IMG/VR virus record: IMGVR_UViG_3300026077_000003
Coordinates: 1 to 60,216 of that record
Length of the DNA: 60,216 bases
Reading direction: 5' to 3' (one strand)
Origin: a virus
Positions 40,531 through 56,660 of this stretch are shown here, piece by piece. Under the pieces are notes generated by a model that had not been told where the DNA came from, made no database searches, and saw only the letters and a list, made by a program, of their open reading frames with translations. Position 1 is the stretch's first letter. Each line of letters opens with the position of its first letter. The position numbers and the translations under genes are program-made.

Positions 40531-41330
40531 CTCGTTTAAATGTCGCACAAGTTAAGGATCTATCCAACCAAGGCGGTATGTCGTTCTCTGGTGGTGCGAT
40601 TACTGCTAATGGCACGTTAACCGTGTCTAAGTTGGTTATCAACGGAACTATTAGTGGATCCTCAGGGTATATAATTCCCTCACAAAGTGGTCAAGCAGGT
40701 AGTTTCCTCTCGACTAATGGATCAACAATATCATGGACTGGCGTATCAGGTGGTGGTGGAGCACCAACAGGTATATCGGTCTATAACTCAAGTACTACTT
40801 GGAATAAACCAAGTGGTGTAAGACGTATATGGGTTAAATGTACTGCTGGTGGTGGAGGTGGTTCAGGTTACGGTGAATCTGGAGCTGCTGGTGGTCATAC
40901 AGAAACCTTCGTTGATGTAAGTAACATTAACTCTATCTCTGTATCAGTTGGAGGTGGAGGAAGTGGAACCAATTATTCAGGTCGTGCTGGTAATGGTGGA
41001 ACATCTTCTTTCGGTAACTACTGTTCATCAGGTGGTGGTCAAGGTGCAAATAGAAACCAACAGCATGATGGTGCTTTAGGTGGTAACCCCAATCAAGGTT
41101 CAGTTAGAATCTATGGTGGTTCATCTCAAGGACATAGAAACCCACCAGGTTTAGGTCATGGTGGTTGTTCATTCTGGGGTGGTGCATCACCAACAACCCA
41201 TAGAAGACAACAGTGGGCACAAAGATATCGTGGTCATGCTGCATACGGTGCAGGTGGTTCTTCAGGTAGAAACCCTGAAAGGGGTGGTGATGGTCGTCAG
41301 GGCATCATAGTTGTCTACGAATTTAACTGA
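40527..41330 (+). CDS. Glycine-rich tail-tip adhesin (gp38-like), copy 1
   Basis: This is a 267-residue protein. The N-terminal shaft part (about 1-70) ends in GSFLSTNGSTISWTGVSGGG. The tip begins with TTWNKPSGVRRIWVKCTAGG and continues as polyglycine loops (GGGGGSGYGE, SVSVGGGGSGTNYS, GGGQGANRNQQ, GLGHGGCSFWGG, AAYGAGGSSG). It ends GRQGIIVVYEFN. Such stacked poly-Gly loops are typical of T2/S16-type gp38 adhesins, where the loops between Gly motifs set host range. A near-copy follows downstream. Confidence 0.78.
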   Translation: MTRLNVAQVKDLSNQGGMSFSGGAITANGTLTVSKLVINGTISGSSGYIIPSQSGQAGSFLSTNGSTISWTGVSGGGGAPTGISVYNSSTTWNKPSGVRRIWVKCTAGGGGGSGYGESGAAGGHTETFVDVSNINSISVSVGGGGSGTNYSGRAGNGGTSSFGNYCSSGGGQGANRNQQHDGALGGNPNQGSVRIYGGSSQGHRNPPGLGHGGCSFWGGASPTTHRRQQWAQRYRGHAAYGAGGSSGRNPERGGDGRQGIIVVYEFN

Positions 41331-41362: not shown

Positions 41363-42163
41363 ATGAGTACCCTCAAAGTATCGGCAATTAGAGACCTATC
41401 TGGTTCTGGTGGTTTAGACCTCAGTTCGGGATCAATCACAGTGAATGGTACTCTAACCGTATCCAACATCAATATTAATGGAACCATTGGAGGTTCATCA
41501 TCACAGGTTATACCATCAGTATCGGGTCAGTCTGGTAAGTTCCTTACTACCAACGGATCTTCGATGTCATGGGGTACAATCACAGCAGGTGGTGGTCCAA
41601 AATCAATCAGTGTATATAACTCAAGTTCCACATGGAATAAACCCAGTGGAATTAAGCGTATATGGGTTAAATGTACTGGTGCTGGTGGCGGTGGATCAGG
41701 TTATGGTGAATCTGGATCCGCAGGTGCACATACTGAAAGTATTGTTAATGTAGAAAACATTAACTCCATCTCTGTCTCCGTTGGTGGAGGAGGTGGTGGT
41801 ACTAACTATTCTGGTTACTCTGGAAATGGTGGTACTTCATCCTTTGGTAACTATTGTTCATCAGGTGGTGGACAAGGTGCTAACAGGAACCAACAGCATG
41901 AAGGATCATTGGGTGGTAACCCTAACCAAGGTTCTGTTAGAATCTATGGTGGTTCAGGTCAGGGACATAGGAACCCACCAGGTCTAGGACATGGTGGATC
42001 TAGTTTCTGGGGAGGTTCATCTCCTACTACTCATAGGAACCAACAGTGGGCTCAGCGTTACAGAAACCATGCTGCATACGGTGCAGGTGGATCCTCTGGT
42101 AAGAACGGTGAGAGAGGTGGCGATGGTCGCCAGGGTATTATTGTAGTTTACGAATTCGATTAA
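41363..42163 (+). CDS. Glycine-rich tail-tip adhesin (gp38-like), copy 2
   Basis: This 266-residue protein is collinear with the preceding adhesin along its whole length. The TWNKPSGIKRIWVKCTGAGG entry, the poly-Gly loops and the GRQGIIVVYEFD end are all shared. Differences cluster in the N-terminal shaft and at a few loop positions (for example GGCSFWGGASPTTHRRQ versus GGSSFWGGSSPTTHRNQ). It has its own late promoter. It could be an alternative receptor-binding tip or a second fibre's tip. Confidence 0.78.
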   Translation: MSTLKVSAIRDLSGSGGLDLSSGSITVNGTLTVSNININGTIGGSSSQVIPSVSGQSGKFLTTNGSSMSWGTITAGGGPKSISVYNSSSTWNKPSGIKRIWVKCTGAGGGGSGYGESGSAGAHTESIVNVENINSISVSVGGGGGGTNYSGYSGNGGTSSFGNYCSSGGGQGANRNQQHEGSLGGNPNQGSVRIYGGSGQGHRNPPGLGHGGSSFWGGSSPTTHRNQQWAQRYRNHAAYGAGGSSGKNGERGGDGRQGIIVVYEFD

Positions 42164-42848: not shown

Positions 42849-44435
42849 ATGAAAATTCGTAATGTCCTCATTGTTGGGGGTGGAACTGCTGGTTGGATGA
42901 CTGCTGCAGCACTCCTAAAATTATGCCCACACATTAAAACCTCGTTGATCGAGAGTCCCGATGTACCCACCAGTGGTGTCGGTGAATCTACTCTCGGACA
43001 GATCAACGAGTTTTTTAAGTTATTAGATCTTAAGGATGAACAGTGGATGAAAGACACTGGTGCTACCTATAAGGTAAACATACGATTTAATGACTTCTAT
43101 CAACCAGGTGAGACATGGGACTATCCATTTGGTAGTTCTGAGAGAGTATTAAAGACATTAACACATGGGTGGATGTCATGGTTTGTATTAAATCAAACGA
43201 GACCAGAGAAGTATCACAGGGGCACATTTGCTGAGTGTTTTAATAGTGTAGGTGCGTTAGCTAAGTATAATAAGTTAAGTGATGATGATAAGTGGTGGAA
43301 CCCATGGGTAGACAGTGCATATCATTTCGATGCAATTAAGTTTGGTCATTGGTTAAAGGATAACTACTGCATACCTAGAGGATTAGAATATCATACGGGC
43401 AATGTGGGCAGATTTGCCCAAGATGCCCGTGGATATATCACTAAAGCATATACTGATGATGGTAGAGAGTTTGAGGCAGATTTATATGTAGATTGTACAG
43501 GGTTTAAGTCTCTATTATTAGAGCAGACATGTGGATCTAAATTTATTAGCTACCACCATAACGATGGAGGTGCACTACTGAATGACACTGCTGTAGCGTG
43601 TCATATGCCCCACTCAGACCCATCTAAAGAGATAACCAACAGTACTAACTGTACTGCTATAGACAATGGGTGGGTATGGGATGTACCCTTGTGGGATAGA
43701 TCAGGTGTAGGGTATGTGTACTCAAAAGATTTTGCAGATAAACCAGAGGAAGAACTATATAATTATTTGCTACGGACAAGAGGGAAGGAGAGAGCAGACA
43801 AAGCATCCATGAGAACTATTCCATTTAGAAATGGAAAGCATGAGAAGTCATGGGTTAAGAATGTATGTGCTATTGGTCTCTCTAATTGTTTCGTAGAACC
43901 ATTAGAAGCAACAGGTCTAGTAACCACACATGAACAGATCACTAGACTATGTACAACACTATCAAGTAGAGAAGGATATACTAATAGAGCAGAAATAGAT
44001 ATGCTGAATCTAGTTGCAGACCTAGAGATAGATGGTTTTATGACATTTATATCTGCTCACTATGCTTTCAGTAGAAGAGAAGGTAAGTATTGGCAGACAG
44101 TATCAGATGATATATCATATCCCTTTGATGAAGGTGGATTGGATAACCTATTTGTAAAATACTCAGCAGAGAAGCATGTATCATATGAGTGGATCGGGGA
44201 TCCAGCACACAATGACGGTGTGAGGTACATAGCAGCAGGAATGGGATTTAATCCTATTTGTGAGCATACCTTATTGCTTAAACGTCTGATGAATGACCTG
44301 ACTGAGGACTATGATGAATGGTACCTCAACGATTGTGATGACACATTTGACGATTGGAGGAAGACCATGTATGATTGGACAAAGAACATGGATTCGTCAT
44401 ACGAATACACAAGAAAGAAGATCTATGAAGGTTAA
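42849..44435 (+). CDS. Flavin-dependent tryptophan-halogenase-family enzyme, copy 1
   Basis: This is a 528-residue FAD-dependent halogenase. The FAD-binding GGGTAGWMTAAAL lies at residues 10-22. The catalytic-lysine region GATYKVNIRF has K75, matching Lys79 of PrnA. A WxWx[IV]P motif is at 275-280 (WVWDVP), and the PLEATG segment contains the expected catalytic Glu. The family oxidises chloride, bromide or iodide to a hypohalous acid that a lysine relays to the substrate. Cyanophage relatives such as VirX1 from Syn10 have been reported to iodinate many substrates. It would need a flavin reductase, which is not seen here. It overlaps copy 2 by 11 nt. Confidence 0.9.
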   Translation: MKIRNVLIVGGGTAGWMTAAALLKLCPHIKTSLIESPDVPTSGVGESTLGQINEFFKLLDLKDEQWMKDTGATYKVNIRFNDFYQPGETWDYPFGSSERVLKTLTHGWMSWFVLNQTRPEKYHRGTFAECFNSVGALAKYNKLSDDDKWWNPWVDSAYHFDAIKFGHWLKDNYCIPRGLEYHTGNVGRFAQDARGYITKAYTDDGREFEADLYVDCTGFKSLLLEQTCGSKFISYHHNDGGALLNDTAVACHMPHSDPSKEITNSTNCTAIDNGWVWDVPLWDRSGVGYVYSKDFADKPEEELYNYLLRTRGKERADKASMRTIPFRNGKHEKSWVKNVCAIGLSNCFVEPLEATGLVTTHEQITRLCTTLSSREGYTNRAEIDMLNLVADLEIDGFMTFISAHYAFSRREGKYWQTVSDDISYPFDEGGLDNLFVKYSAEKHVSYEWIGDPAHNDGVRYIAAGMGFNPICEHTLLLKRLMNDLTEDYDEWYLNDCDDTFDDWRKTMYDWTKNMDSSYEYTRKKIYEG

Positions 44436-46008
44436 GGACGTAGTTATCGTTGGAGGTGGCAGTGCTGGTTGGATGACTGCTGCTGCATTGGATGTCTTGT
44501 GTCCTCATGTCAACGTGACTCTTATTGAGGATCCAAATCAAGGTGTCATAGGTGTTGGTGAGTCCACACTACAGCAGATCCGTAAGTTCATAGGACTGCT
44601 AGGACTTAAAGACTCTGACTGGATGAAGGACATAGGTGCAACATATAAGACTGCTATTAGTTTTAATGACTTCTGGAAGAAGGGTGAGAGTTGGATGTAT
44701 CCATTTGGGTTAGTTAATATGATGGAGAGTAAAGTTCCATGGATGGCATGGTTCGTACTCAATGCAACCAAACCAGAGAAATATACTAATGATACATTTG
44801 CTACTACATTTAATCCTGTAGCACACTTCACCAAATATAATAAACTAACATATGATACTACCTACTGGACACCATGGACTGATACTGCATACCATATAGA
44901 TGCTATTAAGTTTGGACAGTGGTTAAAGAATAATGTATGTAAGAGAGTAAAACATATTAAGGGTGTAGTTAGTGGTTGGCAACAGAAACCAAATGGTGAT
45001 ATCGAGTCAATAATATATGGAGGTAAGAGATTATCTGCTGATCTATTTGTAGATTGTAGTGGGTTTAAGTCATTACTATTGGGTGATGCAATGGGTGTGG
45101 AGTTCGAGTCATTCCTTTATGGTGAAGGTGGTTGTCTATTAAATGACAAAGCAATATCTATTTCAGTACCACATGAGGATCCATCAAGAGAGGTTACTAA
45201 CACAACTAACTGCACAGCATTAAATAATGGATGGGTGTGGGATGTACCATTGTGGGAACGTGGTGGACTAGGGTATGTGTACTCCAGTAAATTTATTACA
45301 GAGGATCAGGCACAAGTAGAGTTGTATGATTATTTGGTACGCTCTAGGGGCAAGGAGAGGGCAGACGCAGTGACATATAAAACCATACCAATTAAGACTG
45401 GTAGGCATAAGAAATCATTTGTTGGTAACGTTATTGGTATAGGTTTATCTAATAATTTCGTAGAACCATTAGAGTCTACTGGGATCCTAGTTCTACATGA
45501 ACAGGTGATTAGATTGTGTAATGCACTGTCAGGACGCAATGGGTTCATACCTAAGGTAGAGAAGGAAATGATTAATCAGATATCAAACTATGAAATTGAG
45601 GGTCAGAAGAATTTCGTTGCTGCTCACTATGCTTTCTCTGAACGTGAGGAACCATACTGGCAGACTGCATCAGATGTCATAGACTATGACTTTAGCGGTG
45701 GTGCTGACAACTATTTCCTACGTCATGCGTCACATAAGTACATAAACTTTGACTTCGTATCACCCATGGGTAGTATAGAGTATAATGATGGACCTAGATA
45801 TTGTGCAGCAGGTATGGGTTTTAACCCTATAAATAAAGTGACACTACCTTTATCAAGGATGTGTAATGAAATCTTACCTGAGGAGGATGATGAAGCATTA
45901 TCCAAGGCAGAGGATATCATTGACAAGTGGCATGAAGACATGCTATCATATTGTGAGACTTTACCCTCGTCTTACGAGTTCTTAAAACAAACCATTTATA
46001 AGGAATAG
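44425..46008 (+). CDS. Flavin-dependent tryptophan-halogenase-family enzyme, copy 2
   Basis: This is 527 residues from the ATG at 44425, chosen because it places VVIVGGGSAGWMTAAAL at the N-terminus as in copy 1. A longer frame inside copy 1 is rejected. K75 in GATYKTAISF, WVWDVP at 270-275 and PLESTG are all conserved. Unlike copy 1 it keeps the Ser of PLESTG. It is a clear paralog with the same length and order of motifs. Substrate and halide are unknown. Confidence 0.9.
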   Translation: MKVKDVVIVGGGSAGWMTAAALDVLCPHVNVTLIEDPNQGVIGVGESTLQQIRKFIGLLGLKDSDWMKDIGATYKTAISFNDFWKKGESWMYPFGLVNMMESKVPWMAWFVLNATKPEKYTNDTFATTFNPVAHFTKYNKLTYDTTYWTPWTDTAYHIDAIKFGQWLKNNVCKRVKHIKGVVSGWQQKPNGDIESIIYGGKRLSADLFVDCSGFKSLLLGDAMGVEFESFLYGEGGCLLNDKAISISVPHEDPSREVTNTTNCTALNNGWVWDVPLWERGGLGYVYSSKFITEDQAQVELYDYLVRSRGKERADAVTYKTIPIKTGRHKKSFVGNVIGIGLSNNFVEPLESTGILVLHEQVIRLCNALSGRNGFIPKVEKEMINQISNYEIEGQKNFVAAHYAFSEREEPYWQTASDVIDYDFSGGADNYFLRHASHKYINFDFVSPMGSIEYNDGPRYCAAGMGFNPINKVTLPLSRMCNEILPEEDDEALSKAEDIIDKWHEDMLSYCETLPSSYEFLKQTIYKE

Positions 46009-46010
46009 AA

Positions 46011-46565
46011 ATGACAGAAGACTTAAAGAAGGTGGAAAACCTTGAGGATGCACATGTAGAGGGAATCAGTCCTGCTGGTGCACCAACCAATCTCGATCCA
46101 AATAATATCAATCAAGACCTAGAGGACTTAGGATTGCCTGAGTTGCCACCAGAGGTGATAGAAGAGGTGCAGTCTGCATATGAAGCAGTACAGTCACTTG
46201 ATGATCTATGGAAGAATCTTATCTATCAGCATAGAGAGAAGTTTGATCATTATCAAGAAATGCAAGAAGGATTATCTTCTATGTCATTTGATAGACCTGA
46301 GACTAGAGTTAACTTTACTGAACTCAATGAAATTAGAGATGAGTTGGTTAAGATAGAAGGTGGTATTGAGACTCTTAACTTGTATCGTAAGTATGTGCTT
46401 AAAGAAGAAGAGCAACCATGGTTAGAAGTAGATATGGAGAAGCAGAGATCAAAGATCAAAGTAGCAACTTCATCTAAGTTCTCAGATCCTAAGAAGAAGA
46501 AAGACTATAGCGAATTAGCAGACTGGCAGGGTGGACAGAATCCAGAACTGAATAAACTGAAGTAA
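46011..46565 (+). CDS. Helical protein next to halogenases, unknown
   Basis: This is a 184-residue protein. The N-terminal 60 residues are Pro/Glu/Asp-rich and likely disordered. The middle (about 60-135) is a helical coiled-coil-like region, and the C-terminus is basic then polar (DPKKKKDYSELADWQGG). It starts 2 nt after copy 2 of the halogenase and overlaps the next oxygenase start (TAATG). No family is recognised. Confidence 0.6.
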   Translation: MTEDLKKVENLEDAHVEGISPAGAPTNLDPNNINQDLEDLGLPELPPEVIEEVQSAYEAVQSLDDLWKNLIYQHREKFDHYQEMQEGLSSMSFDRPETRVNFTELNEIRDELVKIEGGIETLNLYRKYVLKEEEQPWLEVDMEKQRSKIKVATSSKFSDPKKKKDYSELADWQGGQNPELNKLK

Positions 46566-47281
46566 TGGATCTAAATCTTGATTATTTGTTTCCCACTCCT
46601 ATATGGTGGGTTGATCTAGATCATATCAATATCAAAGAGATGCAAGACATTTGCTATGGTATTGCAGAGAACATGGAGACAAAAGAAAGGAGCAATAGGG
46701 GGTTGATGAATTATCAGTCCCCTGACTTTTTTGGTGAGAAATTATGTGAGGAGGAGGATGATGAGTTTGGTAAATTAGCAAGAAGTATTAAAGACTTTGG
46801 TAATAAAGCATTTGATTCATTTGAGTCATGTGTCACCACACTAGAGTTTGCTAATATATGGATTAATATTAATAACAAGGGTGGATATAATGAAGTCCAC
46901 ACACATCCAGGATCATTGATGTCTGGTGCATTTTATGTTAAAGTACCAGAAGAAGGAGACTGTGGTAGTATAACATTTCATAAAAATGCTATGGAAGGGT
47001 ATGTAACTCATTCTCTGGGATTAGCAGAGGATTTGAGTAAAGCGGAAGCACCACATACTCATGCAACCATGTCTTATCCACCAAAAGAAGGTCGATTAGT
47101 TTTATTTCCATCATGGATATCTCATGGTGTGAGAGAGAACGAGACTGAAGAAGATCGTATTAGTATCTCATTTAATTTGATTCCAAATAGGAATAAGAGA
47201 GATATGTCTGAAATTATTAAATCTCATGCAAACACAACTATTCTCCATACCCGTGGAGACGGGAACGATAGTTCCAACTGA
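46565..47281 (+). CDS. 2OG-Fe(II) oxygenase (TIGR02466 type)
   Basis: This is a 238-residue protein. It begins with LFPTPIWWVDLD, the standard family opening. The core has YNEVHTHPGSLMSGAFYVKV (H112, H114), then EGRLVLFPSWISHGVR (H187) and DRISISFN (R198). Family proteins are predicted hydroxylases of unknown substrate. It overlaps the next oxygenase by 56 nt, an unusually long overlap. Confidence 0.88.
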   Translation: MDLNLDYLFPTPIWWVDLDHINIKEMQDICYGIAENMETKERSNRGLMNYQSPDFFGEKLCEEEDDEFGKLARSIKDFGNKAFDSFESCVTTLEFANIWININNKGGYNEVHTHPGSLMSGAFYVKVPEEGDCGSITFHKNAMEGYVTHSLGLAEDLSKAEAPHTHATMSYPPKEGRLVLFPSWISHGVRENETEEDRISISFNLIPNRNKRDMSEIIKSHANTTILHTRGDGNDSSN

Positions 47282-47861
47282 TGAAGAATTAAGTGCTACT
47301 CTAGAATTATTAGATGAAGCATGGTCTGTTGCTGAAAAAGGTACATGGGCATTAGAATCAGGTAAGTCTACTGGTAACTTAGAACAGGGTACAGAACTAT
47401 ATCAATCAACTACATTTGATTGGTTAACCATGCCTATGTTAAATGCAGTGCATGATTACTGGGATCTTGTTCTAGGGTATCGTAAAGACTTCCACATGTA
47501 TGTTGATGGTATGTGGGCAAATTTACATACCGAAGGAGATACTACAGGAGAACATAACCATAGTGCAGGTAGAGGTAAGTCACATGTATCATGTGTATAT
47601 TATCTTAAGAAGAATCCTGACAATGGTCATTTATTATTTCGTGATCCATTAGAAATGGTATGGGGTATGTCTCCTATGGATAGGACTTTCATTAACCTTA
47701 AGAAACAACATATACATAAAGCAAAGACATATGATTATGTCATATTTCCATCATGGTTATACCATGAGACACAACCCAATGGTAAAGACGAACGCATAGC
47801 AATTAGTATGAACTTCAGTGGATATCCACTAGACCCTAGTGAAGGAGATTGGTCAAGATAA
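47226..47861 (+). CDS. 2OG-Fe(II) oxygenase (TIGR02466 type)
   Basis: This 211-residue protein has MWANLHTEGDTTGEHNHSAG (H110, H112 as likely ligands), a SHVSCVYYLKKNPDNGHLLF strand pair, YVIFPSWLYHETQP (H180) and DERIAISMNFSG (R190). The start codon lies inside the preceding gene and gives the usual FSIPVETGT-like opening. It is coupled downstream by TAATG. Confidence 0.86.
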   Translation: MQTQLFSIPVETGTIVPTDEELSATLELLDEAWSVAEKGTWALESGKSTGNLEQGTELYQSTTFDWLTMPMLNAVHDYWDLVLGYRKDFHMYVDGMWANLHTEGDTTGEHNHSAGRGKSHVSCVYYLKKNPDNGHLLFRDPLEMVWGMSPMDRTFINLKKQHIHKAKTYDYVIFPSWLYHETQPNGKDERIAISMNFSGYPLDPSEGDWSR

Positions 47862-48565
47862 TGGATGTATTAAACCTACCATTTTTAAACCCCAGTGTAT
47901 TCCAGACAAATGATAAACCAAGAGTTTGGGAGGGAGTATTAAAGAATCCTGAGCAATATTGCACATGGGATGATGTAACCAAGTGCATGAATAACCCATG
48001 GCATTTTAGGTGCTGCTTACTTAATACTGATGGACGTAGACTAGATCTCAATGAGAAGTTTGAGGTGTGGTATGAGGATAAGTTTCCATTAAAGGAGGAA
48101 CTATTCCATGGTATTAATGAAGGACTGACATTTACTATAGAACAGTATGGTCATTATAATAAGGCAGTAGATAATTTATTAGAGAATATAGAGACAAGGT
48201 ACGATTGTAATTGTGATGCACATATATTTGGTAACGCTTTACCTAATGGTATATCATTTGGTGCACACTGGGATCTACCACCTAATTTTATATGTCAGTT
48301 AGAAGGAGAGACACACTGGCAAGTATATAAAGAGAGGTGTAGTGCATTGGTTAAGATGGATGATAATCCATACAGTCCTGATAATAATAATCACCAACTC
48401 ACAGTTGATTTAGATGTGGTATTAAAACCAGGTGATGTTATGTACTTCCCTGCAAGAACATATCATAAACCATTTCCAGGTGGTAAAAGATTAAGTATGA
48501 GCATACCATGTTCATACCCTCGTGATGTACTAAGTGATAGGAGACAATATGAAATCCGTTTTTGA
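47861..48565 (+). CDS. JmjC/cupin-4-like hydroxylase, copy 1
   Basis: This is 234 residues from the ATG overlapping the previous stop; an upstream TTG in frame is less likely. The cupin core has GAHWDLPPNFICQLEGETHW with the HxD pair H136/D138. The distal KPGDVMYFPARTYHKPFPGG has H202 and is followed by RLSMSIP. The layout (HWD, then LxPGDVxYxP, then H) matches ribosomal-oxygenase-type Cupin_4 proteins, which hydroxylate protein side chains. The substrate here is unknown. It is paired with the 2OG oxygenase that follows. Confidence 0.8.
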   Translation: MDVLNLPFLNPSVFQTNDKPRVWEGVLKNPEQYCTWDDVTKCMNNPWHFRCCLLNTDGRRLDLNEKFEVWYEDKFPLKEELFHGINEGLTFTIEQYGHYNKAVDNLLENIETRYDCNCDAHIFGNALPNGISFGAHWDLPPNFICQLEGETHWQVYKERCSALVKMDDNPYSPDNNNHQLTVDLDVVLKPGDVMYFPARTYHKPFPGGKRLSMSIPCSYPRDVLSDRRQYEIRF

Positions 48566-49076
48566 TACACTACCAGAACCTATAGTTAATCAACTAGAAG
48601 GTCTTACTAAGAACCCACGGTTCCCATGGTATTGGTTAGATGATACTACATACATGACATCAGACCATGATGGTTTAAAGGCACATTCATTCTCTCATCA
48701 ATTAATAGATGAGTATGAACCTGTTAGTGAACAGACAGGACTATTTGAGAGTGCATTGCATTGCATTGCAGATAAATGTGATGCAAGAGTATCAGACATA
48801 TATCGTGTACGATTAGGATTGTGCTATCCTGATGGTATGCTACATCATGCACCACATACAGATTATGATTTCGATCATACTACTGCATTATATTATGTTA
48901 ACGAAGCAGATGGTGACACATTCTTCTTTGATAATGATAATAATATTATTCATAGAGAGACACCACTCAAAGGTAAGATGATAGTATTTGATGGTAAAGA
49001 TATACATGCTTCATCATCACCTACACAGGGTATTAGGATTGCAATGAATGTCAATTTTAAACTACGAATTTCTTGA
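48549..49076 (+). CDS. 2OG-Fe(II) oxygenase, P4H-like, copy 1
   Basis: This is 175 residues from the ATG at 48549, which has an AGGAG ribosome site 5 nt upstream. It shows the classical HxD...H...R set: H103-T-D105 in HAPHTDYDFDHTTALYYVNE, GKMIVFDGKDIHASSSP (H153) and GIRIAMNVNF (R163). It overlaps the second JmjC/cupin gene by 29 nt. It resembles the gene at 49945 in plan and sequence (FPWYW/FPWFM, YYVNExDG). Confidence 0.87.
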   Translation: MKSVFDTLPEPIVNQLEGLTKNPRFPWYWLDDTTYMTSDHDGLKAHSFSHQLIDEYEPVSEQTGLFESALHCIADKCDARVSDIYRVRLGLCYPDGMLHHAPHTDYDFDHTTALYYVNEADGDTFFFDNDNNIIHRETPLKGKMIVFDGKDIHASSSPTQGIRIAMNVNFKLRIS

Positions 49077-49749
49077 CCCTGAGGTCTACAAATATAATGA
49101 TGAACCTAGAGTATGGCACAATGCTGTAGGGCAGATCGTTACATGGGAGGATGCAGAAAATGCCCTAAATGCCCCATGGAATTACATCACTACAGTATTA
49201 GGTGATGATGGTAAGAGACTAGATTTAGAGACAGTAGAGGAACCATGGTTCTTTAAAGGTATATACAAGAAGAGAGATCTATTTCAGTACGCAAAGGATG
49301 GATGGACAGTAAATATATCACAGTATGGTCATGGTAATGATAGGGTAGAAGAACTATTAACTGAGTTAGAGAATAGATTTGATGGGTGTGCTGACTGTGG
49401 TATCTTTATGAACTTGGGTACGAGACCAGAAGCGAGATCCTTTCATCCACATTGGGATCATGGTCCAACATATATTATGCAGATGGATGGTGAGACTAGA
49501 TGGGTAGTGTATGAGAATAGAGTATCAGCATTGATACCTAGTACAGAGGAGAATCCTTATGTACCAAGTCAGGAAGAACTGACAATACAACTAGACACTG
49601 TACTTACAGCAGGAGATGTACTATACTTACCCCAGAGGAAATTCCACAAAGCATATCCATCTAAAAAGAGACTCTCATTATCAGTACCAATTTGGTGTCC
49701 AAAGAGGTGTGAGTGCAGTGATCGGAATTCGTATCGTTTAAATCTCTAA
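49048..49749 (+). CDS. JmjC/cupin-4-like hydroxylase, copy 2
   Basis: This 233-residue paralog of the 47861 gene shares the opening (FLDPEVYKYNDEPRVWHNAV versus FLNPSVFQTNDKPRVWEGVL). It also shares FHPHWDHGPTYIMQMDGETR (H135, D137), TAGDVLYLPQRKFHKAYPSK (H200) and RLSLSVP. Both also share the ISQYGHGND/IEQYGHYNK element. It overlaps the upstream oxygenase gene. The duplication of the cupin plus 2OG pair is discussed under findings. Confidence 0.8.
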   Translation: MSILNYEFLDPEVYKYNDEPRVWHNAVGQIVTWEDAENALNAPWNYITTVLGDDGKRLDLETVEEPWFFKGIYKKRDLFQYAKDGWTVNISQYGHGNDRVEELLTELENRFDGCADCGIFMNLGTRPEARSFHPHWDHGPTYIMQMDGETRWVVYENRVSALIPSTEENPYVPSQEELTIQLDTVLTAGDVLYLPQRKFHKAYPSKKRLSLSVPIWCPKRCECSDRNSYRLNL

Positions 49750-49778
49750 ATACTATTAACGTCACTTGTGGGGGAAAC

Positions 49779-49961
49779 ATGACATCAATAGCAGTAGAGT
49801 GTTTAACTCTACAGCAGAAGCATAAAGAAACATTAACTAAGGCACTTTTCCTATTACAGAAAGAGTGGTATAATAAACTGGGTCAACTACCAGATGAACA
49901 ACGTGAATTGATTGATGAAATTGCGTCCGCCTTACATCTCAAGCATGAGAATAGAGGATAA
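49779..49961 (+). CDS. Small helical protein, unknown
   Basis: This 60-residue all-helical protein contains a KHKETLTKALFLLQKEWYNK helix. A GGGGG ribosome site precedes it, and a CTAAATAC box at 49746 lies upstream. It overlaps the next oxygenase by 17 nt. No family is recognised. Confidence 0.55.
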   Translation: MTSIAVECLTLQQKHKETLTKALFLLQKEWYNKLGQLPDEQRELIDEIASALHLKHENRG

Positions 49962-50436
49962 CTTCCTCGCTCAAGATAAATGGAAAGAACTCCATGATTA
50001 TATGACATCATGGGAGTTTCCATGGTTTATGCAAACAACATTAACTCATGGTAATGATGACTTAGAAGCGTTTGGATTTAACCATTGGTTAACTGCTGAG
50101 GAACACCCATTATTTGCTCACCTTGTCACCGAGATGCAATCTGCCCTATCTGCCCGTAATGTGTTACGGGTACGAGCAGACATGACATTACTTAATCCTA
50201 ATAAGTATAGACATGGATGGCATACTGACAGTAAGGAGGAGCATACAGTCTGCATATATTATGTAAATGAAAGTGATGGTAATACATTACTTAAGGATCC
50301 AGTTGAGGGTCATGGTTATATGCAAGTAGAACCAAAAGCGAACAGACTATTGGTATTTGATGGCAGTATAGAACATACTGGTCACTCACCAAGTGAACAC
50401 AAACAGAGGATTTTAATCAATGCAAACTTCTGTTAA
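49945..50436 (+). CDS. 2OG-Fe(II) oxygenase, P4H-like, copy 2
   Basis: This is 163 residues from the ATG at 49945, chosen to match the N-terminal length of its paralog at 48549; an ATG at 49915 is also in frame. The core has H93-T-D95 in GWHTDSKEEHTVCIYYVNES, NRLLVFDGSIEHTGHSP (H144) and QRILINANF (R155). It is a probable tandem-duplication product with the 48549 gene. Confidence 0.85.
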   Translation: MRIEDNFLAQDKWKELHDYMTSWEFPWFMQTTLTHGNDDLEAFGFNHWLTAEEHPLFAHLVTEMQSALSARNVLRVRADMTLLNPNKYRHGWHTDSKEEHTVCIYYVNESDGNTLLKDPVEGHGYMQVEPKANRLLVFDGSIEHTGHSPSEHKQRILINANFC

Positions 50437-51025
50437 ACCTGAGATTCTCCCACTATTCTCATCACCAGTATATGTGTGTGAGGATAAGACTATGCCTAAT
50501 GTCATTAGTGCTATTGAGGGATGGGAGTATCATAAAGCACCCCAACAAGGTAGTCAGACATTCGAAATGAATGTTTTAACTAAACTACCTGCACTTAGGG
50601 AGTGGTTAAACTTTCATGTAGAAGAATATGTATGGAATGTGTTAGGAATTGATAGAAGATGCCATGAAATAGTATATACTTGCTCATGGATTAACAGACA
50701 CAAATTCCAAGAGAAAACACATGAACATTCCCACCGTAACAGCATGTATAGTGGGATTTGTTATTTACAAACACATGAAAGATGTGGTGATCTGGTCTTT
50801 AGGGATCAATCATATAATATGGTATCACCACGCATAGTTCATGGTAACCTATACAATAGTAAGCAATGGACAATACAACCTAAGGATGGCATGGTGGTGA
50901 TGTTCCCTAGTTCTATGGTGCATCTAGTCACACCTAACCAGATAATGCGAGAGAGATACTCACTAGCATTTAATATCTTTCTTAAGGGTGATTTTGGTAA
51001 CCCTACTTCATTCTTAAAATTATGA
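50420..51025 (+). CDS. 2OG-Fe(II) oxygenase (TIGR02466 type)
   Basis: This is a 201-residue protein. The opening is LPLFSSPVYVCEDK. The core has KTHEHSHRNSMYSGICYLQT (H101/H103/H105), DGMVVMFPSSMVHLVTP (H168) and RERYSLAFN (R179). It overlaps both neighbours. The substrate is unknown. Confidence 0.86.
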   Translation: MQTSVKPEILPLFSSPVYVCEDKTMPNVISAIEGWEYHKAPQQGSQTFEMNVLTKLPALREWLNFHVEEYVWNVLGIDRRCHEIVYTCSWINRHKFQEKTHEHSHRNSMYSGICYLQTHERCGDLVFRDQSYNMVSPRIVHGNLYNSKQWTIQPKDGMVVMFPSSMVHLVTPNQIMRERYSLAFNIFLKGDFGNPTSFLKL

Positions 51026-51369
51026 GTACACCTATTTTTCTATCGGAGTCTGTAAGATTGGAACTAAGAAACATACTCAAGTCACTTGAGGTTGGAATGA
51101 GAGTCAGGACACCTGACAATGAGGATGGTTACATAGACTTCATTTGTGACCAATATATTACTGTAGTCACCCATGAGTGGGAGGATAAGGATAAATTAAA
51201 TGGTAAGAGACAAGTCAAGGTGTTGGTATATGCTGCTGACTGGGAGAATATGTACTTAGAGGACACCCACTTCTATAATAAAAAGAATTATACAGGATAT
51301 ATTCGTGAACATCCTGGAAATGAGGATTTGCCAAAAGACATTACTGGCAAGGATCCAGAGAATAAATAA
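51022..51369 (+). CDS. Conserved-type phage protein, unknown
   Basis: This 115-residue protein has an alpha/beta look and a central beta-rich part (GYIDFICDQYITVVTHEW, KRQVKVLVYAADWENMYLED) like a small SH3- or KOW-type barrel. The polar C-terminal tail is Asp/Lys/Pro-rich. It overlaps the previous gene by ATGA. No family is recognised. Confidence 0.58.
   Translation: MSTPIFLSESVRLELRNILKSLEVGMRVRTPDNEDGYIDFICDQYITVVTHEWEDKDKLNGKRQVKVLVYAADWENMYLEDTHFYNKKNYTGYIREHPGNEDLPKDITGKDPENK
51361..51368 (+). promoter_or_regulatory. Late-promoter-like box AATAAATA
   Basis: AATAAATA is one mismatch from TATAAATA. It lies 22 nt before a 54-codon gene and overlaps the previous stop. Confidence 0.5.
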
Positions 51370-51389
51370 TTACTTAATAAGGGACTATT

Positions 51390-51554
51390 ATGTGGAACAT
51401 CAATTTAAAACCTGTTTGCAAGTTCGCTACTAAGGTTAAGGAGTGGGATAAGGCACTAGCAAAGAAGATACAAGACAAGTATAACTTGACTGACTATCAG
51501 ATGTTATGCCTAGCATTTGGTAAGGGATTTATTATTGGTGCTATACTATTATGA
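51390..51554 (+). CDS. Small protein with hydrophobic C-terminus, unknown
   Basis: This 54-codon ORF has a basic N-terminal half (CKFATKVKEWDKALAKKIQD) and a short hydrophobic tail (GFIIGAILL) that could anchor in a membrane. It overlaps the next gene by ATGA. No family is recognised. Confidence 0.5.
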   Translation: MWNINLKPVCKFATKVKEWDKALAKKIQDKYNLTDYQMLCLAFGKGFIIGAILL

Positions 51555-51739
51555 TGCAATTTAATGAGAAGGACGTTAACCGCATGATTAGAGCATGTGA
51601 GTACTATGAGCATTGGGTATGTGGCAATCATCCTACTGGTTATATGAAGGAAGAATACAGTCACCTACTAAAGAAACTACATAACTATGAGTCTGAAATA
51701 GATTGTCCAGATTGCAAGTGCTGTGCGATCCACTCATAG
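51551..51739 (+). CDS. Small Cys-rich protein, unknown
   Basis: This 62-residue protein has a His/Glu/Cys-containing middle (CEYYEHWVCGNHPTGYM) and a C-terminal CPDCKCC cluster that may bind zinc. It is the last gene before the structured RNA candidate. No family is recognised. Confidence 0.52.
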   Translation: MMQFNEKDVNRMIRACEYYEHWVCGNHPTGYMKEEYSHLLKKLHNYESEIDCPDCKCCAIHS

Positions 51740-51756
51740 AAGTGGCACACACCCTG

Positions 51757-51784
51757 TTGCAAGTGGTTGACTACATGGTATTCT
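51757..51784 (+). promoter_or_regulatory. Candidate promoter for structured RNA (TTGCAA-16-TATTCT)
   Basis: TTGCAA (51757-51762) lies 16 nt before TATTCT (51779-51784), which carries an extended TGG element. Both boxes are imperfect. The predicted start (about 51791) falls exactly on the GGGAAAC that begins the folded region. Confidence 0.4.
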
Positions 51785-51790
51785 ATTAAT

Positions 51791-51908
51791 GGGAAACAAA
51801 GCGGTTCCCCTCTAGTCCGACAAAGATGCCGATCCCATAAGCAACTCGGATCCCAGAAGCGGACACATGACCGAGGGGGTAAAATGCACAGACAGACCGT
51901 TTTTGTTT
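51791..51908 (+). ncRNA. Candidate structured RNA (about 115-120 nt)
   Basis: This is a non-coding gap between two short genes with nested complementarity. The outer 12-bp stem pairs 51794-51805 (AAACAAAGCGGT) with 51896-51908, with one bulged T. Inside, CCCCTC (51807-51812) pairs with GAGGGG (51873-51878) and GTCCG (51815-51819) with CGGAC (51860-51864). An inner hairpin forms through GATCC/GGATC or CCGA/TCGG. The right side ends in a T-rich run that can serve as a terminator. No tRNA cloverleaf fits and no known RNA family is recognised. Confidence 0.6.
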
Positions 51909-51936
51909 CTCTCGTCAATATCTGCCATTAAACTAA

Positions 51937-52203
51937 ATGCCAACTGCAACACCTCGCAAAAGAAGGACACGCAAGACAACACCTGCAAAACCTAAAGTCG
52001 AGGTCATTAAAGTGACAGAACCAAAAGCAACATCAGTGAGACCTAGCACTCTTCTCAAATCCACTGATTATATCAATGATATTAAAGTGAGACTTGAGAT
52101 TCATAATTACGAAGTAAATGCACTCGTAAATGATATTAAATGGGGTTACAGCAAAGTTAAAGACTATGTTGTCACCACATATAAGAAAGAGTTTGCTAAG
52201 TAA
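51937..52203 (+). CDS. Small basic protein, unknown
   Basis: This is an 88-residue protein. The first 35 residues are Lys/Arg/Pro/Thr-rich (TPRKRRTRKTTPAKPK) and probably bind nucleic acid. The rest (about 40-88) is a predicted helical pair. It follows the structured RNA by 28 nt and is followed by a terminator, so it may be the gene that RNA controls. No family is recognised. Confidence 0.55.
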   Translation: MPTATPRKRRTRKTTPAKPKVEVIKVTEPKATSVRPSTLLKSTDYINDIKVRLEIHNYEVNALVNDIKWGYSKVKDYVVTTYKKEFAK

Positions 52204-52224
52204 ACCACTATCCAAACTGTCCAC

Positions 52225-52248
52225 AAGCACCCAATAAGGGTGCTTTTT
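52225..52248 (+). terminator. Rho-independent terminator
   Basis: An 8-bp stem AAGCACCC/GGGTGCTT with loop AATAA is followed by TTT. It closes the transcript of the small basic protein. Confidence 0.9.
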
Positions 52249-52253
52249 ATTTG

Positions 52254-52259
52254 TATAAT
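52254..52259 (+). promoter_or_regulatory. -10 box TATAAT upstream of helicase
   Basis: A perfect TATAAT lies just after the terminator and 42 nt upstream of the helicase start. No clear -35 is seen, so the activity is uncertain. Its place right after a terminator makes it the likely promoter of the next operon. Confidence 0.45.
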
Positions 52260-52301
52260 GTATAGGTAGGCAAGTCCTACACAAATCTTATTATTGATTA
52301 A

Positions 52302-53498
52302 GTGACCAATTCTTTGAGACCACATCAAGAGCGAGCATTGGAAGCAATGACTACGCAAGATAAAGGTCAAATCATAGTGCCTACTGGTGGAGGCAAAACA
52401 TTTATAATGATACAGGATACTATCAACCAGTTCCAAAGTAGTATCCCTAAAACTATTGTAGTAGTAGCACCTCGCATATTATTATCTCAACAGTTATGTG
52501 CTGATTTTATGTCACATATAGATGCTGATGTGTTACATGTACATAGTGGCAAGAGTAAATATCTTAATACTACAAAACCTGAGGAGATTATACAATGGGT
52601 TGATGATAGTGTTAAGCATAGAATAATATTCACAACATATCATTCACTTCATAGAATAGTGACTGATGTTGATACAATATATTTTGATGAAGCACACAAT
52701 AGTGTAGCAAGATCATTCTTTAATGCAACTCAGTATTTCGCTAATAAGAATGTATCTAATCGCTGCTACTACATGACAGCGACACCTAGGGTGTCTAGGA
52801 AGCACGAGAGGGGCATGAATAATGCTGAGGTATATGGTAACATCATCTGTAATGTACAGGCAACAGAATTGATTGAGAGTGGAACTATACTACCACCTAC
52901 CATAGTACCATTTAATACTGAGAAACCTGCACAAGATAGTATAATAGACATTATTGATAATGCTTATGATGATGGTGTGCTTAAGGTATTAGTATCAGTA
53001 CCTAGTTCTAAAGTATTAGGTAAGATGTTGGGTCAATCATCATTGTTAGAGGAATTAAAAGAGAGAGACATTAATGTATTACATGTAACAAGTAAGTTTG
53101 GTGCATACGTTAATGATAAGAAAGTATCTCGTAACGAGTTCCTAACAACATTGCATGAGTGGTCAAAAGATGATACAATATCCTTTATATGCTTTCATTA
53201 TAGTATTCTTTCAGAGGGTATAAATGTAAGTGGATTGACTCATACTATTATGATGAGATATCTGTCAGTTGTAGAAATGGCACAAACCATAGGTAGAGTC
53301 ATTAGATTAGATGCTGACGATAGAGCAAGAATTAATAGTGGTGAGTTAGCACCTATGAATTGGTCACTATATAATAAACCAACAGGTTATGTTACAGTAC
53401 CAGTTCATCCTAAGACAAAGCACATAGTCAAGAGATTACAGAAAGTAGTTGATGCTATTTTTGTTGAGGGTAAACCACCAGTTTCATTAGTGAGTTAG
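52302..53498 (+). CDS. SF2 DEAH-type helicase
   Basis: This 398-residue, GTG-start protein has a complete set of superfamily 2 motifs. The Q-motif-like RPHQERALEA is followed by Walker A PTGGGKT (27-33), DEAH (129-132), MTATPR (motif III region, about 158), and a C-terminal RecA domain with FHYSILSEGINVSGLTHTIM and VVEMAQTIGRVIRLD (motifs V and VI). It lacks extra N- or C-terminal domains and resembles the ResIII/UvsW class of phage helicases. It is followed within 2 nt by an oxygenase. It may act in recombination, replication restart or with the nuclease-like gene at 54943. Confidence 0.88.
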   Translation: MTNSLRPHQERALEAMTTQDKGQIIVPTGGGKTFIMIQDTINQFQSSIPKTIVVVAPRILLSQQLCADFMSHIDADVLHVHSGKSKYLNTTKPEEIIQWVDDSVKHRIIFTTYHSLHRIVTDVDTIYFDEAHNSVARSFFNATQYFANKNVSNRCYYMTATPRVSRKHERGMNNAEVYGNIICNVQATELIESGTILPPTIVPFNTEKPAQDSIIDIIDNAYDDGVLKVLVSVPSSKVLGKMLGQSSLLEELKERDINVLHVTSKFGAYVNDKKVSRNEFLTTLHEWSKDDTISFICFHYSILSEGINVSGLTHTIMMRYLSVVEMAQTIGRVIRLDADDRARINSGELAPMNWSLYNKPTGYVTVPVHPKTKHIVKRLQKVVDAIFVEGKPPVSLVS

Positions 53499-53499
53499 T

Positions 53500-54135
53500 A
53501 TGGGAGACATTAAGGCACTATTTCCAGGATTTTATTATCATGGTGAAGTGCCTAGTCACGAATACCTTAAGAAACTATTTCTTAGTGAATTAAGTGATGC
53601 ACAATTAAATAGTCCATCTGATTGGAATTGTAAACTATCATCTAGTTTTGATAGTAGCACAAATCTAACAGACTTTTCATGGAATGTATTTGAGAAGGCA
53701 ATACAAGATAATATAATGAATATGCACATGAAATTAGGTGGTAAACCTGAGCATAGAATAGTTATGTTTGAGTCATGGATAAATGTATATAATCAGGGAG
53801 ATATGCAAGATGTACATACTCACTCAGGTGGGGATGATTGTACATTTAGTTGTGCATATTTTCTTGACTATATACCTGAGGAGGATGCTAATTTTATATT
53901 TTATTATCCCGATCAGAATATACATATAGGGAACTTCAGTAAGTATTATCCAGTTAATACAACTTGGTTCCCTGAGGTTAAAGAAGGGGATATAATTATA
54001 TTCCCTGCTTATCAACATCATCAAGTGAGTATGCAACAATCTAAACACAAACGTATCACAATATCTGCTAACTTTAAAGTTAGAGGTGATGATTACACAC
54101 CAACACAAAATGAATTAGTGAGGGAATTAGCATGA
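53500..54135 (+). CDS. 2OG-Fe(II) oxygenase (TIGR02466 type)
   Basis: This 211-residue protein has an ESWINVYNQGDMQDVHTHSG core (H106, H108), then EGDIIIFPAYQHHQVSM (H173 or H174) and KRITISANF (R185). The opening (LFPGFYYHGEVP) is the family type. It lies 1 nt after the helicase stop and overlaps the next gene by ATGA. Confidence 0.86.
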   Translation: MGDIKALFPGFYYHGEVPSHEYLKKLFLSELSDAQLNSPSDWNCKLSSSFDSSTNLTDFSWNVFEKAIQDNIMNMHMKLGGKPEHRIVMFESWINVYNQGDMQDVHTHSGGDDCTFSCAYFLDYIPEEDANFIFYYPDQNIHIGNFSKYYPVNTTWFPEVKEGDIIIFPAYQHHQVSMQQSKHKRITISANFKVRGDDYTPTQNELVRELA

Positions 54136-54698
54136 CATATAATATAGAAGGTGTCAACGTAATTGATGGATACTTTCCTGATTGGATTGTAGATGATGTT
54201 GCCAACTGGTTAACAGATTATTGTCCTATGTACTATAATAACGCACCTTATGGTGATGCTAGTAGTAGTAGATTTTGGGGTAATACTGTTATTAGAAATG
54301 ATGATTTTACAGATACATCACCATACTATTGGTTCTTTAGTTACCTATGTGAATGTGTAAAGAAAGATATATGCAAAGATAAACCCATATCACATATTCA
54401 TAGGTTATTAGTTAATGCTCAATCACCTGATATGCAAAGTGAATTCCATGATGATAGGCACATACCTGCAACAAGTGTTATATATCACGCATTTGGTGAA
54501 AGTGGTGATACTGAATTCGCTAGTGGTGATAGGGTTAGATTTAGACAAGGTAGATTAATAGTATTTGATAGTAAGATCAAGCACAAGGGGAATCCACCTT
54601 ATGTGCATGATAAAATGAGAATATCATTAGGAGTAATTGCAGATCATGTACCTAAGGACAGTTCTGCAACTATCACACAACAGGGAGTAATTTTCTAA
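54132..54698 (+). CDS. 2OG-Fe(II) oxygenase, P4H-like
   Basis: This is a 188-residue protein. The HxD pair is H106-D-D108 in QSEFHDDRHIPATSVIYHAF, followed by GRLIVFDSKIKHKGNPP (H151) and MRISLGV (R163). The FHDD and IxHKGNxP layout is typical of P4H-like phage oxygenases. The substrate is unknown. Confidence 0.85.
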   Translation: MTYNIEGVNVIDGYFPDWIVDDVANWLTDYCPMYYNNAPYGDASSSRFWGNTVIRNDDFTDTSPYYWFFSYLCECVKKDICKDKPISHIHRLLVNAQSPDMQSEFHDDRHIPATSVIYHAFGESGDTEFASGDRVRFRQGRLIVFDSKIKHKGNPPYVHDKMRISLGVIADHVPKDSSATITQQGVIF

Positions 54699-54911
54699 AT
54701 GGATGGTAAGATAGATGTCTCAACAAAAGAGTGTTATACACTCGTTAAAGCAAAACAGCATGTTGAGCAGTTGATGTCACTAACCAGTAAACTCGAAAGA
54801 TCAACTTATATTACAAAGTTGCTCAATCAGTTACATAAAGAGTTAGAATATCAGCATGAGGTTCGAAAGAACCCCAATCTAGTCAAGATAAATGATTCTT
54901 GGTTAGACTAA
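54699..54911 (+). CDS. Small helical protein, unknown
   Basis: This 70-residue protein starts immediately after the previous stop. It is mostly helical (KAKQHVEQLMSLTSKLERST, LNQLHKELEYQHEVRKNP). No family is recognised. Confidence 0.55.
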   Translation: MDGKIDVSTKECYTLVKAKQHVEQLMSLTSKLERSTYITKLLNQLHKELEYQHEVRKNPNLVKINDSWLD

Positions 54912-54942
54912 ATACAAACAAATCACTTTAGTCTCGGAGGAG

Positions 54943-56091
54943 ATGATGACAACTAAAAAGACCAAAAAAGGTGCAGGATCAACAACAGATCACTACATCC
55001 AAGATGCTGCTGAAATATATCTTGCAGCAGAATTACAAAAGCAAGCAGAGAATAATGAGGTTGCGATCTCAAACTGTGCTGCTACTCAGGAAGAGGAGTG
55101 GATCACATACTGCACAGAACGTGGAGTATTATCTAAATTCTTATCATCTAAGTATAAAACAAATGTTGATAAGACAGTACATAAACTATTACCTGAGTTT
55201 ATTAAAACATATCCTAACAGGAAGTTTTACTTTACATGTGTAGATGCTGAGTTCAGAAACAAGAATCTAAAAGGTGATCTATTAATCACATTTGATGATT
55301 GTTCACAAGTTTCAGTATCAGTTAAGAACTACAAAAATGGTTTTGATTCTATACAAGTATGCTCAGGAACATTTAACTCAACACTAAACAATTTCTTATT
55401 TGATAATACTAACTGTTCTCCAGGAATGTATAAAGATAGTAGAGGTAATAAGTTTAAAGGTAGTAAGAGAGAATTAAGAGATGAATTAGTTACTGAAATT
55501 GCACCACAATTAATAGGTTACTATCATCAATTAGATGCAATCAATGATGCAGTTCGCAATTTCTATATTAATAGCGATCAAGCAGAGCATTGGGACAATG
55601 TTAAGGATCAATGGCAGTCAGATTGCAAAACAATAGGTACACAAGTTGCTGCTACTATTACTGAAGCAGTTAACCAGATTGACAACAAATTAGTATTAAA
55701 TAGACTACTAAAAGCAACTGGTATTGTATCTGATGAGCATCTATTGTGCATAGGTAAAGGTAACTATCTATTCTCAGTTACAGATGAGAAGTATGCTGCA
55801 TTACAGTTAAGACTAAGAAATGCAACTCATGTAGTTACAACAAATAGAGGACAATCAGTTTTCTATGATATATGTGATGATAACGGTACTATCTTGACTA
55901 TTAATCAACCTTGCACACTTCAGAAAAATGGTGCATGGCACGCATTAAATGAAGATAGATTTGATGGATTAAGAGAGAAGAAAGATAAAGGTAAGAAAGT
56001 ATTACTTGCATGGGGTCAGAGAAGACCTGCAAAGAGCAAGGAACTTGCTACCAGTACCAACACATACCTTAGACTAAGGGAAGCGGTTTAA
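54943..56091 (+). CDS. Putative PD-(D/E)XK nuclease-like protein
   Basis: This is a 382-residue protein. Residues 111-131 (GDLLITFDDCSQVSVSVKNY) have the D112 ... S-x-K128 arrangement found in restriction-type nucleases (ligand D, then [EDS]xK). Upstream E103 and the KFLSSKYK/HKLLPEFIKTY helices would form the usual N-terminal half. The C-terminal half (about 230-382) contains a long helix and a beta-rich tail. A GGAGGAG ribosome site precedes it and two ATGs begin the frame. If it is a nuclease, a host-DNA or competitor-DNA degrading role is possible. The assignment is by eye only. Confidence 0.5.
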   Translation: MMTTKKTKKGAGSTTDHYIQDAAEIYLAAELQKQAENNEVAISNCAATQEEEWITYCTERGVLSKFLSSKYKTNVDKTVHKLLPEFIKTYPNRKFYFTCVDAEFRNKNLKGDLLITFDDCSQVSVSVKNYKNGFDSIQVCSGTFNSTLNNFLFDNTNCSPGMYKDSRGNKFKGSKRELRDELVTEIAPQLIGYYHQLDAINDAVRNFYINSDQAEHWDNVKDQWQSDCKTIGTQVAATITEAVNQIDNKLVLNRLLKATGIVSDEHLLCIGKGNYLFSVTDEKYAALQLRLRNATHVVTTNRGQSVFYDICDDNGTILTINQPCTLQKNGAWHALNEDRFDGLREKKDKGKKVLLAWGQRRPAKSKELATSTNTYLRLREAV

Positions 56092-56660
56092 TGAGGAATA
56101 CATACGATTTATTCCCTATTAAATACCACCATGTACACATCCGTAACCATTCGGATGTGTTTGGTAAATTATATGATAGTGCTAAACATTTATTAAACTC
56201 ATCTAAAGGTAAATGGAATTGTGATACACAAACCACATTCTTTGATGAAAATGATATTGTAGCACCTGATGAATTAGGTGAAATGTTATCACCTTACCTA
56301 TATCAATATTTTCCACCTGAGGTGAATATTAATATAGTTAACAGTTGGATAAATGTATATGATAAAGGTAATTGGCAAGAACCACATCATCACATAGTAT
56401 TTCCTGAGTTCATCAATTTTAGTGGTGTGATATTCATTAACTATGATCCTGAGAATGATGCTAAATTCTATTTTGAGAATATGAACTTAGATCATACTAT
56501 CTCAGGTTACACCCATATAATGAAACAAGATCCAATTTTAGAACCACCAGTACGTCAGGGTGATATGATAGTATTTCCATCATTCATACGTCATGGAGTA
56601 CACCTACAAAAGAATGATTCTAAGCGAACCACATTATCATTTAATTTGGACGTTAGGTAG
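56091..56660 (+). CDS. 2OG-Fe(II) oxygenase (TIGR02466 type)
   Basis: This is a 189-residue protein. It opens with LFPIKYHHVHI. The core has NSWINVYDKGNWQEPHHHIV (H99-H101 as candidate ligands), NFSGVIFINYDP, QGDMIVFPSFIRHGVHLQ (H168) and KRTTLSFNLDV (R179). It is coupled to the nuclease-like gene by a 1-nt overlap and is the last oxygenase of the island. Confidence 0.85.
   Translation: MRNTYDLFPIKYHHVHIRNHSDVFGKLYDSAKHLLNSSKGKWNCDTQTTFFDENDIVAPDELGEMLSPYLYQYFPPEVNINIVNSWINVYDKGNWQEPHHHIVFPEFINFSGVIFINYDPENDAKFYFENMNLDHTISGYTHIMKQDPILEPPVRQGDMIVFPSFIRHGVHLQKNDSKRTTLSFNLDVR

Follow-up and report, generated by a model that had tools for sequence, protein, structure and literature searches.

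A halogenase and oxygenase island in a T4-like cyanophage is the downstream half of a conserved fibre-tip cassette

The DNA analysed here, positions 1 to 60,216 of IMG/VR virus record IMGVR_UViG_3300026077_000003 (the window, 60,216 nucleotides), is part of a T4-like cyanophage genome and carries an island of halogenase and oxygenase genes at 42849-56660. It forms the downstream part (about half) of a longer tip cassette, a real, conserved and coherent unit in which one or more glycine-rich fibre-tip genes, encoding the part of the tail fibre that contacts the host cell, are followed by a chaperone-like partner, one or more halogenases, and then oxygenase and JmjC genes. The initial annotation, made from the sequence alone, had taken 42849-56660 as the unit; the enzyme island is real, but the functional unit starts at about 39787, and the tip and chaperone-like genes had been missed. 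We infer, with somewhat better than even confidence, that the targets of the island enzymes are the fibre tips of the phage itself, which they would halogenate and hydroxylate. More tentatively, at a little below an even chance, the cassette may represent a new viral system that places halogens and hydroxyls on Tyr, His and other tip side chains by means of an exchangeable tip-chaperone-enzyme unit, together with a large class of proteins with the 2-oxoglutarate (2OG) oxygenase fold and an H-x-H...H motif. The novelty lies in the recognition of the unit and of its linkage to the tips, the enzyme families being already known.

Conservation and exchange of the cassette

Linkage was surveyed in IMG/VR from four anchors (partner, tip, JmjC and halogenase), with the best 80 loci for each and the genes labelled with custom-built profiles. 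With the partner as anchor, a tip lies immediately upstream in 80/80 loci and a halogenase immediately downstream in 79/79, one locus ending at a contig edge; starting from the tip, the partner follows in 76/76 (four contig edges) and a halogenase after it in 75/75. Of the JmjC genes preceded by eight or more genes, all 74 have a halogenase and a partner upstream and 73 a tip, while 96 of 98 JmjC genes directly touch an oxygenase. A glycine-rich tip is found within five genes upstream of the halogenase in 50/67 loci. The order is conserved in more than 100 distinct modules, with at least three kinds of tip arrangement, which bears out the earlier proposal of a dedicated system rather than scattered accessories; the suggested check of co-occurrence and order across cyanophages returned conserved clustering in both IMG/VR and named phages.

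In named phages the cassette genes are gained and lost together. Among GenBank/RefSeq records, 20 (11 phages) have a full-length halogenase with identity of 37% or more, the partner occurs in these same 20 and in no others, and a tip is seen in 19 of them; more distant halogenases (S-MbCM6, P-SSM2, S-PM2 and others) occur without a partner alongside. Two genomic settings are used, one after the fibre genes near gp5 (S-WAM1, Syn9, P-TIM40) and one before the neck gene gp13 (Sf-FR1, Sf-FP1, S-RIM44). In S-RIM44 isolate Np_42_0711, the stretch that separates a 10-kb structural gene from the neck gene contains three tips, the partner, two halogenases, oxygenases and JmjC; isolate W2_10_0709 has none of the cassette genes at that site. 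From the neck gene onward the S-RIM44 isolates are 95-98% identical, compared with only 65-70% for the upstream long fibre gene. As they differ by the whole tip-plus-enzyme block, this block behaves as an exchangeable host-recognition cassette. The long fibre genes, just upstream and also divergent between these isolates, could suggest that the enzymes modify the virion at another part, for example the long fibre or a baseplate protein. However, phages that lack the cassette have long fibres too, and the constant neighbours are the tip and the partner, and we regard this as the least probable of the explanations weighed here.

Similar clusters are also found beside other tips. In seven IMG/VR loci the halogenase-oxygenase cluster adjoins three tandem genes for tail-fibre proteins whose C-terminus is C1q-like; in five of the seven these genes are on the opposite strand. 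In locus L079 one strand encodes three glycine-rich tips and a partner and the other strand three halogenases and several oxygenases, and in Sf-CH11 a halogenase and several oxygenase-type genes are flanked by two glycine-rich/LamG tip-like genes. The enzymes follow tip genes whatever the tip fold or strand, so inherited gene order alone hardly explains the association.

Copies of phrog_7084, a family that also includes Syn9 gp43, accompany the enzymes in seven C1q-type loci. This family, which matches DUF6065 weakly, often lies next to module halogenases, for example at L042 7156-9312 and L006 17577-18365, forms three tandem copies in five loci with three C1q-type tips, and was not found in the window. 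A 280-kb virus contig (L037) has a halogenase and oxygenases on both strands near two glycine-rich proteins of 530 and 552 residues.

Tip, partner and enzyme genes

Two paralogous glycine-rich proteins (40527 and 41363; both PF21722, phrog_863) and the partner (42165) lie directly upstream of halogenase 1. The AlphaFold2 model of the tip (predicted local distance difference test score, pLDDT, 84) shows the distal TNF-like and glycine-rich fold of the Pam3 cyanophage tail fibre gp24, with the distal half of which it superposes at Z 21.3 and root-mean-square deviation 2.4 over 179 residues with 27% identity. According to the accessible part of the Pam3 report (7ypx, PMC9608196), a chaperone trimer embraces the TNF-like and glycine-rich distal domains of a minimal fibre made of one protein plus chaperone, and modifying enzymes are not mentioned there. 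The top structural match of the partner model is this chaperone, gp25, and the second is from the Mu tail fibre-chaperone complex, both being weak (Z 4.8 and 2.8). At the sequence level, profile searches linked neither the tip nor the partner to Pam3 proteins, the likeness being by structure only. On the adjacency of the two genes and the Pam3 structural matches, we read them as tip and probable tip chaperone, and assign the chaperone role to 42165 with moderate confidence.

Tip genes appear duplicated and frameshifted at Syn9 gp39 (L006 12672-13850) and broken by stops in S-CREM1 (54758-55282); this pattern would fit gain and loss of tip copies. The middle tip of P-TIM40 (L010 11694-13283) has an additional C-terminal domain of about 260 residues, so that tips with a common base may differ in their receptor-binding heads. 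The partner could not be traced to a cellular home: its one hit in cellular genomes is a 188-kb contig filed under Nonlabens xiamenensis (L356, NZ_RMVE01000006.1), with a P-TIM40-like cassette in the same order, which is probably a phage contig inside a bacterial assembly.

The enzymes were assigned by Pfam and PHROG profile searches of the window proteins. The two flavin halogenases, eight 2OG-oxygenase-fold genes and two JmjC/cupin-like genes predicted for the interval were all recovered. Both halogenases match PF04820 over most of the protein (E 9e-95 and 4e-94) as well as phrog_2928; 46565, 47226, 50420, 53500 and 56091 match PF13759 above cut-off (seven genes in the whole window); 48549 is a clear PF13640 match, 49912 (49945 in the initial annotation) barely passes the same profile (27.4 bits vs a cut-off of 27), and 54132 is under the Pfam cut-off yet matches phrog_274 (E 1e-26). 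The JmjC genes 47861 and 49048 match PF08007 (JmjC_2; E 1e-16 and 2e-17), giving an interval tally of two halogenases, five PF13759, three PF13640/phrog_274-type and two JmjC proteins. Profile searches also confirm 6058, 25586 and 39787 outside the interval, and the predicted total of thirteen iron oxygenases in the window stands. Oxygenase and JmjC genes make up 10/17 in the interval vs 13/64 in the window (hypergeometric P 2.5e-5); we consider the recurrence of the halogenase-oxygenase cluster in independent phages more telling than this P value.

The nearest annotated relative is P-RSM6, in which the island is collinear at about 84% DNA identity. The initial annotation had named decay of the genes as a possible refutation, which is contradicted by the absence of internal stops from every island gene and by ratios of nonsynonymous to synonymous substitution (dN/dS) of 0.07-0.32 against P-RSM6, computed with 6058 and the helicase left aside and indicating purifying selection. 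Sullivan et al. 2010 (PMC3037559) explained cyanophage 2OG oxygenases by nitrogen signalling or DNA repair, and one could suppose that the oxygenases simply consume 2OG and so tune nitrogen signalling, the cluster being a hypervariable region that accumulates accessory genes; the range of 0 to 9 oxygenases per halogenase locus would fit this. Ten divergent enzymes are not required to consume 2OG, however, the JmjC and halogenase order is fixed, and every island gene scored is under purifying selection, which makes such a metabolic effect very improbable.

Across 13 module halogenases, K75 (in TYK), E350, W275 and P280 are invariant and G10-G12, G15 and W277 are at least 90% conserved. Judged by these residues, the dinucleotide motif GxGxxG, WxWxxP and the catalytic Lys and Glu are retained (motif names as in PMC8407142). 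The closest solved relative of halogenase 1 is VirX1 of cyanophage Syn10 (PDB 6qgm, E 1e-106); the tip and the partner, too, accompany the halogenase in both Syn10 and Syn9. The three PF13640/phrog_274-type proteins (48549, 49912 and 54132) have H-x-D and 25586 has H-x-E; for this type, H-x-D and a distal His are present in 217/217 homologues from the fetched loci.

The JmjC proteins retain the H-x-D...H that they share with the ribosomal oxygenases NO66, MINA53 and YcfD (PF08007), protein hydroxylases that are the nearest solved relatives of JmjC protein 2; the phage proteins are about 235 residues long vs 373-489 for these relatives. This kinship would also suit enzymes directed at a macromolecule of the host (surface receptor, ribosome, photosystem or polymerase) whose genes accompany those of the tips since both fit the phage to one type of host. 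The presence of PF13759 genes elsewhere than in the cassette in each of the 15 phages tested, cassette-less ones included, and the stress laid on host reprogramming in the literature (PMC9602691) point the same way. Left unexplained would be the adjacency of tip and partner in 80/80 loci and the similar clusters beside unrelated C1q tips, and we judge a host target unlikely, if less so than the other alternatives.

Lone JmjC genes of the same family are located beside a porphyrin-biosynthesis gene in Syn30 and Sf-CH1b (L014 18034-18594, L016 16010-16690), outside any tip cassette.

From the tip through the second JmjC gene every gap is at most 32 bp, leaving no room for a separate precursor peptide, and the annotated neighbours include no assembly-line (peptide synthetase or polyketide), tailoring, transport or other biosynthetic gene and no precursor peptide. 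Both points count against a small-molecule pathway in which free tryptophan or indole is the halogenase substrate and a halogenated metabolite the product, as in pyrrolnitrin-like antibiotics, and which would leave the tip linkage unexplained. Such a pathway was proposed by the S-CREM1 authors (PMC9964418) and is in keeping with the Pfam family name Trp_halogenase and with the many small aromatics that VirX1 halogenates in vitro (PMC8407142); we nevertheless find it quite improbable.

Proposed modification of the fibre tips

Fibre proteins, host surface glycans or proteins and a small molecule had all been offered initially as targets; of these, the data favour the first. Under tip modification, the tips 40527 and 41363, predicted to be trimeric, would fold with the help of the chaperone-like partner 42165 and would be modified before or during virion assembly, while chaperone-held and before being mounted on the fibre. 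The VirX1-type halogenases, using reduced flavin adenine dinucleotide (FADH2), halide and oxygen, would halogenate tip aromatics, with Tyr or His as likelier targets than Trp, and other exposed residues would be hydroxylated by the 2OG and JmjC oxygenases, each divergent paralogue probably serving a different site or a different tip paralogue. With its surface altered, the adhesin may differ in receptor binding, stability or metal binding. Enrichment of the late-promoter motifs CTAAATA and ATAAATA was not seen in the window, so these motifs are uninformative on timing.

Over 285 tips, Y149, E116 and F161 are invariant, H179 and H202 are conserved at 96%, and three further His positions at 82-86%. 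Trp accounts for 0.9% of the tip C-terminal region, and in 20 of 121 modules, distinct by last tip sequence, no tip has a Trp in its last 170 residues; this weakens Trp as the target and makes Tyr or His likelier if a single residue type is halogenated throughout. Histidyl hydroxylases are among the JmjC relatives, which fits the His-rich tip loops. Halogenated Tyr and His occur in the Gly/His-rich jaw proteins of marine worms, which we cite as an analogy only. VirX1 forms trimers, has an open active site in which bulky aromatics are accommodated, and shows a halide preference of iodide over bromide over chloride (PMC8407142); a protein substrate would be compatible with these properties.

Several observations weigh against tip modification or against parts of it. 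The linkage counts refer to different contigs, not independent lineages, and selection of the best 80 loci favours close relatives; 13/70 halogenase loci with at least 10 genes have no recognised tip, and S-H35 has a glycine-rich tip with an unlinked halogenase. Linkage alone would be compatible with a shared swap unit that sets host range, with no enzyme-substrate relation. The match of the partner to Pam3 gp25 is weak (Z 4.8, Foldseek E 0.33). The PF13759/phrog_81 type has H-x-H aligned to the H-x-D site in 361/363 homologues from the fetched loci, and all seven PF13759 proteins of the window (6058, 39787, 46565, 47226, 50420, 53500 and 56091) carry H-x-H instead of H-x-D/E, meaning that more than half of the "iron oxygenases" have His where classical enzymes have an acid. 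These proteins pass the family profile and lack the canonical H-x-D/E triad, and their closest solved relatives, 2rg4 and 3bvc, are both uncharacterised. Their initial description as ordinary iron oxygenases therefore holds for family and fold and not for the metal motif, and classical 2OG chemistry is putative for them.

Viral enzymes that modify proteins of their own particle are known from mimivirus (collagen hydroxylation and glycosylation) and mycobacteriophages (virion glycosylation). Their chemistry is different, and they are not known to involve halogenation or such a linkage to fibre tips. The cyanophages S-CREM1 and S-SCSM1 share the enzyme families of the island, with 10 and 24 2OG oxygenases, respectively (PMC9964418, PMC9602691), and S-CREM1 carries this very cassette; their oxygenases were published as auxiliary metabolic genes, with general host reprogramming as explanation (PMC9602691, PMC9964418), and not as a tip-linked system. 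Virion proteomics of S-CREM1 identified 14 proteins, and the accessible part of that source does not mention tip detection or modification. Cyanophage halogenases have been explained by antibiotic synthesis (PMC9964418) or metabolite change (PMC10452541). Work on VirX1 treated it as a biocatalyst in isolation, and the accessible text gives neither a native substrate nor the tip neighbourhood. No paper linking the halogenase or oxygenases to tail fibres was found in the open-licence literature, where subscription work could be missed. If tip modification is correct, it would explain the purpose of VirX1 and of many cyanophage 2OG oxygenases, would mean that phages chemically tailor their adhesins, with a bearing on how cyanophages choose hosts in the ocean, and would supply enzymes for the halogenation or hydroxylation of proteins in their folded state.

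Gene positions and labels

Table 1. Genes of the cassette, including the enzyme island, in the window
Feature	Position	Strand	Remarks
PF13759-type oxygenase-fold protein, H-N-H, just upstream of tips	39787..40530	+	same position in P-RSM6 and several IMG/VR modules
Glycine-rich fibre-tip protein, copy 1	40527..41330	+	PF21722, phrog_863
Glycine-rich fibre-tip protein, copy 2	41363..42163	+	model matches Pam3 fibre gp24, Z 21.3
Partner, likely tip chaperone, phrog_1787, 222 residues	42165..42833	+	weak fold match to Pam3 gp25
VirX1-type flavin halogenase 1	42849..44435	+	PF04820, phrog_2928, VirX1 match
VirX1-type flavin halogenase 2	44425..46008	+	PF04820, phrog_2928; start from reading frame and P-RSM6
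Hypothetical protein, only with close module relatives and P-TIM40	46011..46565	+	
PF13759-type oxygenase-fold protein, H-T-H	46565..47281	+	profile match
PF13759-type oxygenase-fold protein, H-N-H	47226..47861	+	profile match
JmjC_2 protein 1, H-W-D...H	47861..48565	+	PF08007
PF13640-type putative 2OG oxygenase, H-T-D	48549..49076	+	profile match
JmjC_2 protein 2	49048..49749	+	PF08007
PF13640-type putative 2OG oxygenase, H-T-D	49912..50436	+	profile match just above cut-off
PF13759-type oxygenase-fold protein, H-E-H	50420..51025	+	profile match
PF13759-type oxygenase-fold protein after helicase, H-T-H	53500..54135	+	profile match
phrog_274-type putative 2OG oxygenase, H-D-D	54132..54698	+	PHROG match
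PF13759-type oxygenase-fold protein, H-H-H	56091..56660	+	profile match

We also noticed that the phrog_274 label "DNA endonuclease V" is wrong for 48549, 49912 and 54132, which have the 2OG-oxygenase fold and H-x-D, and that this mislabel has spread into the RefSeq annotation of the P-RSM6, S-WAM1 and Syn9 records.

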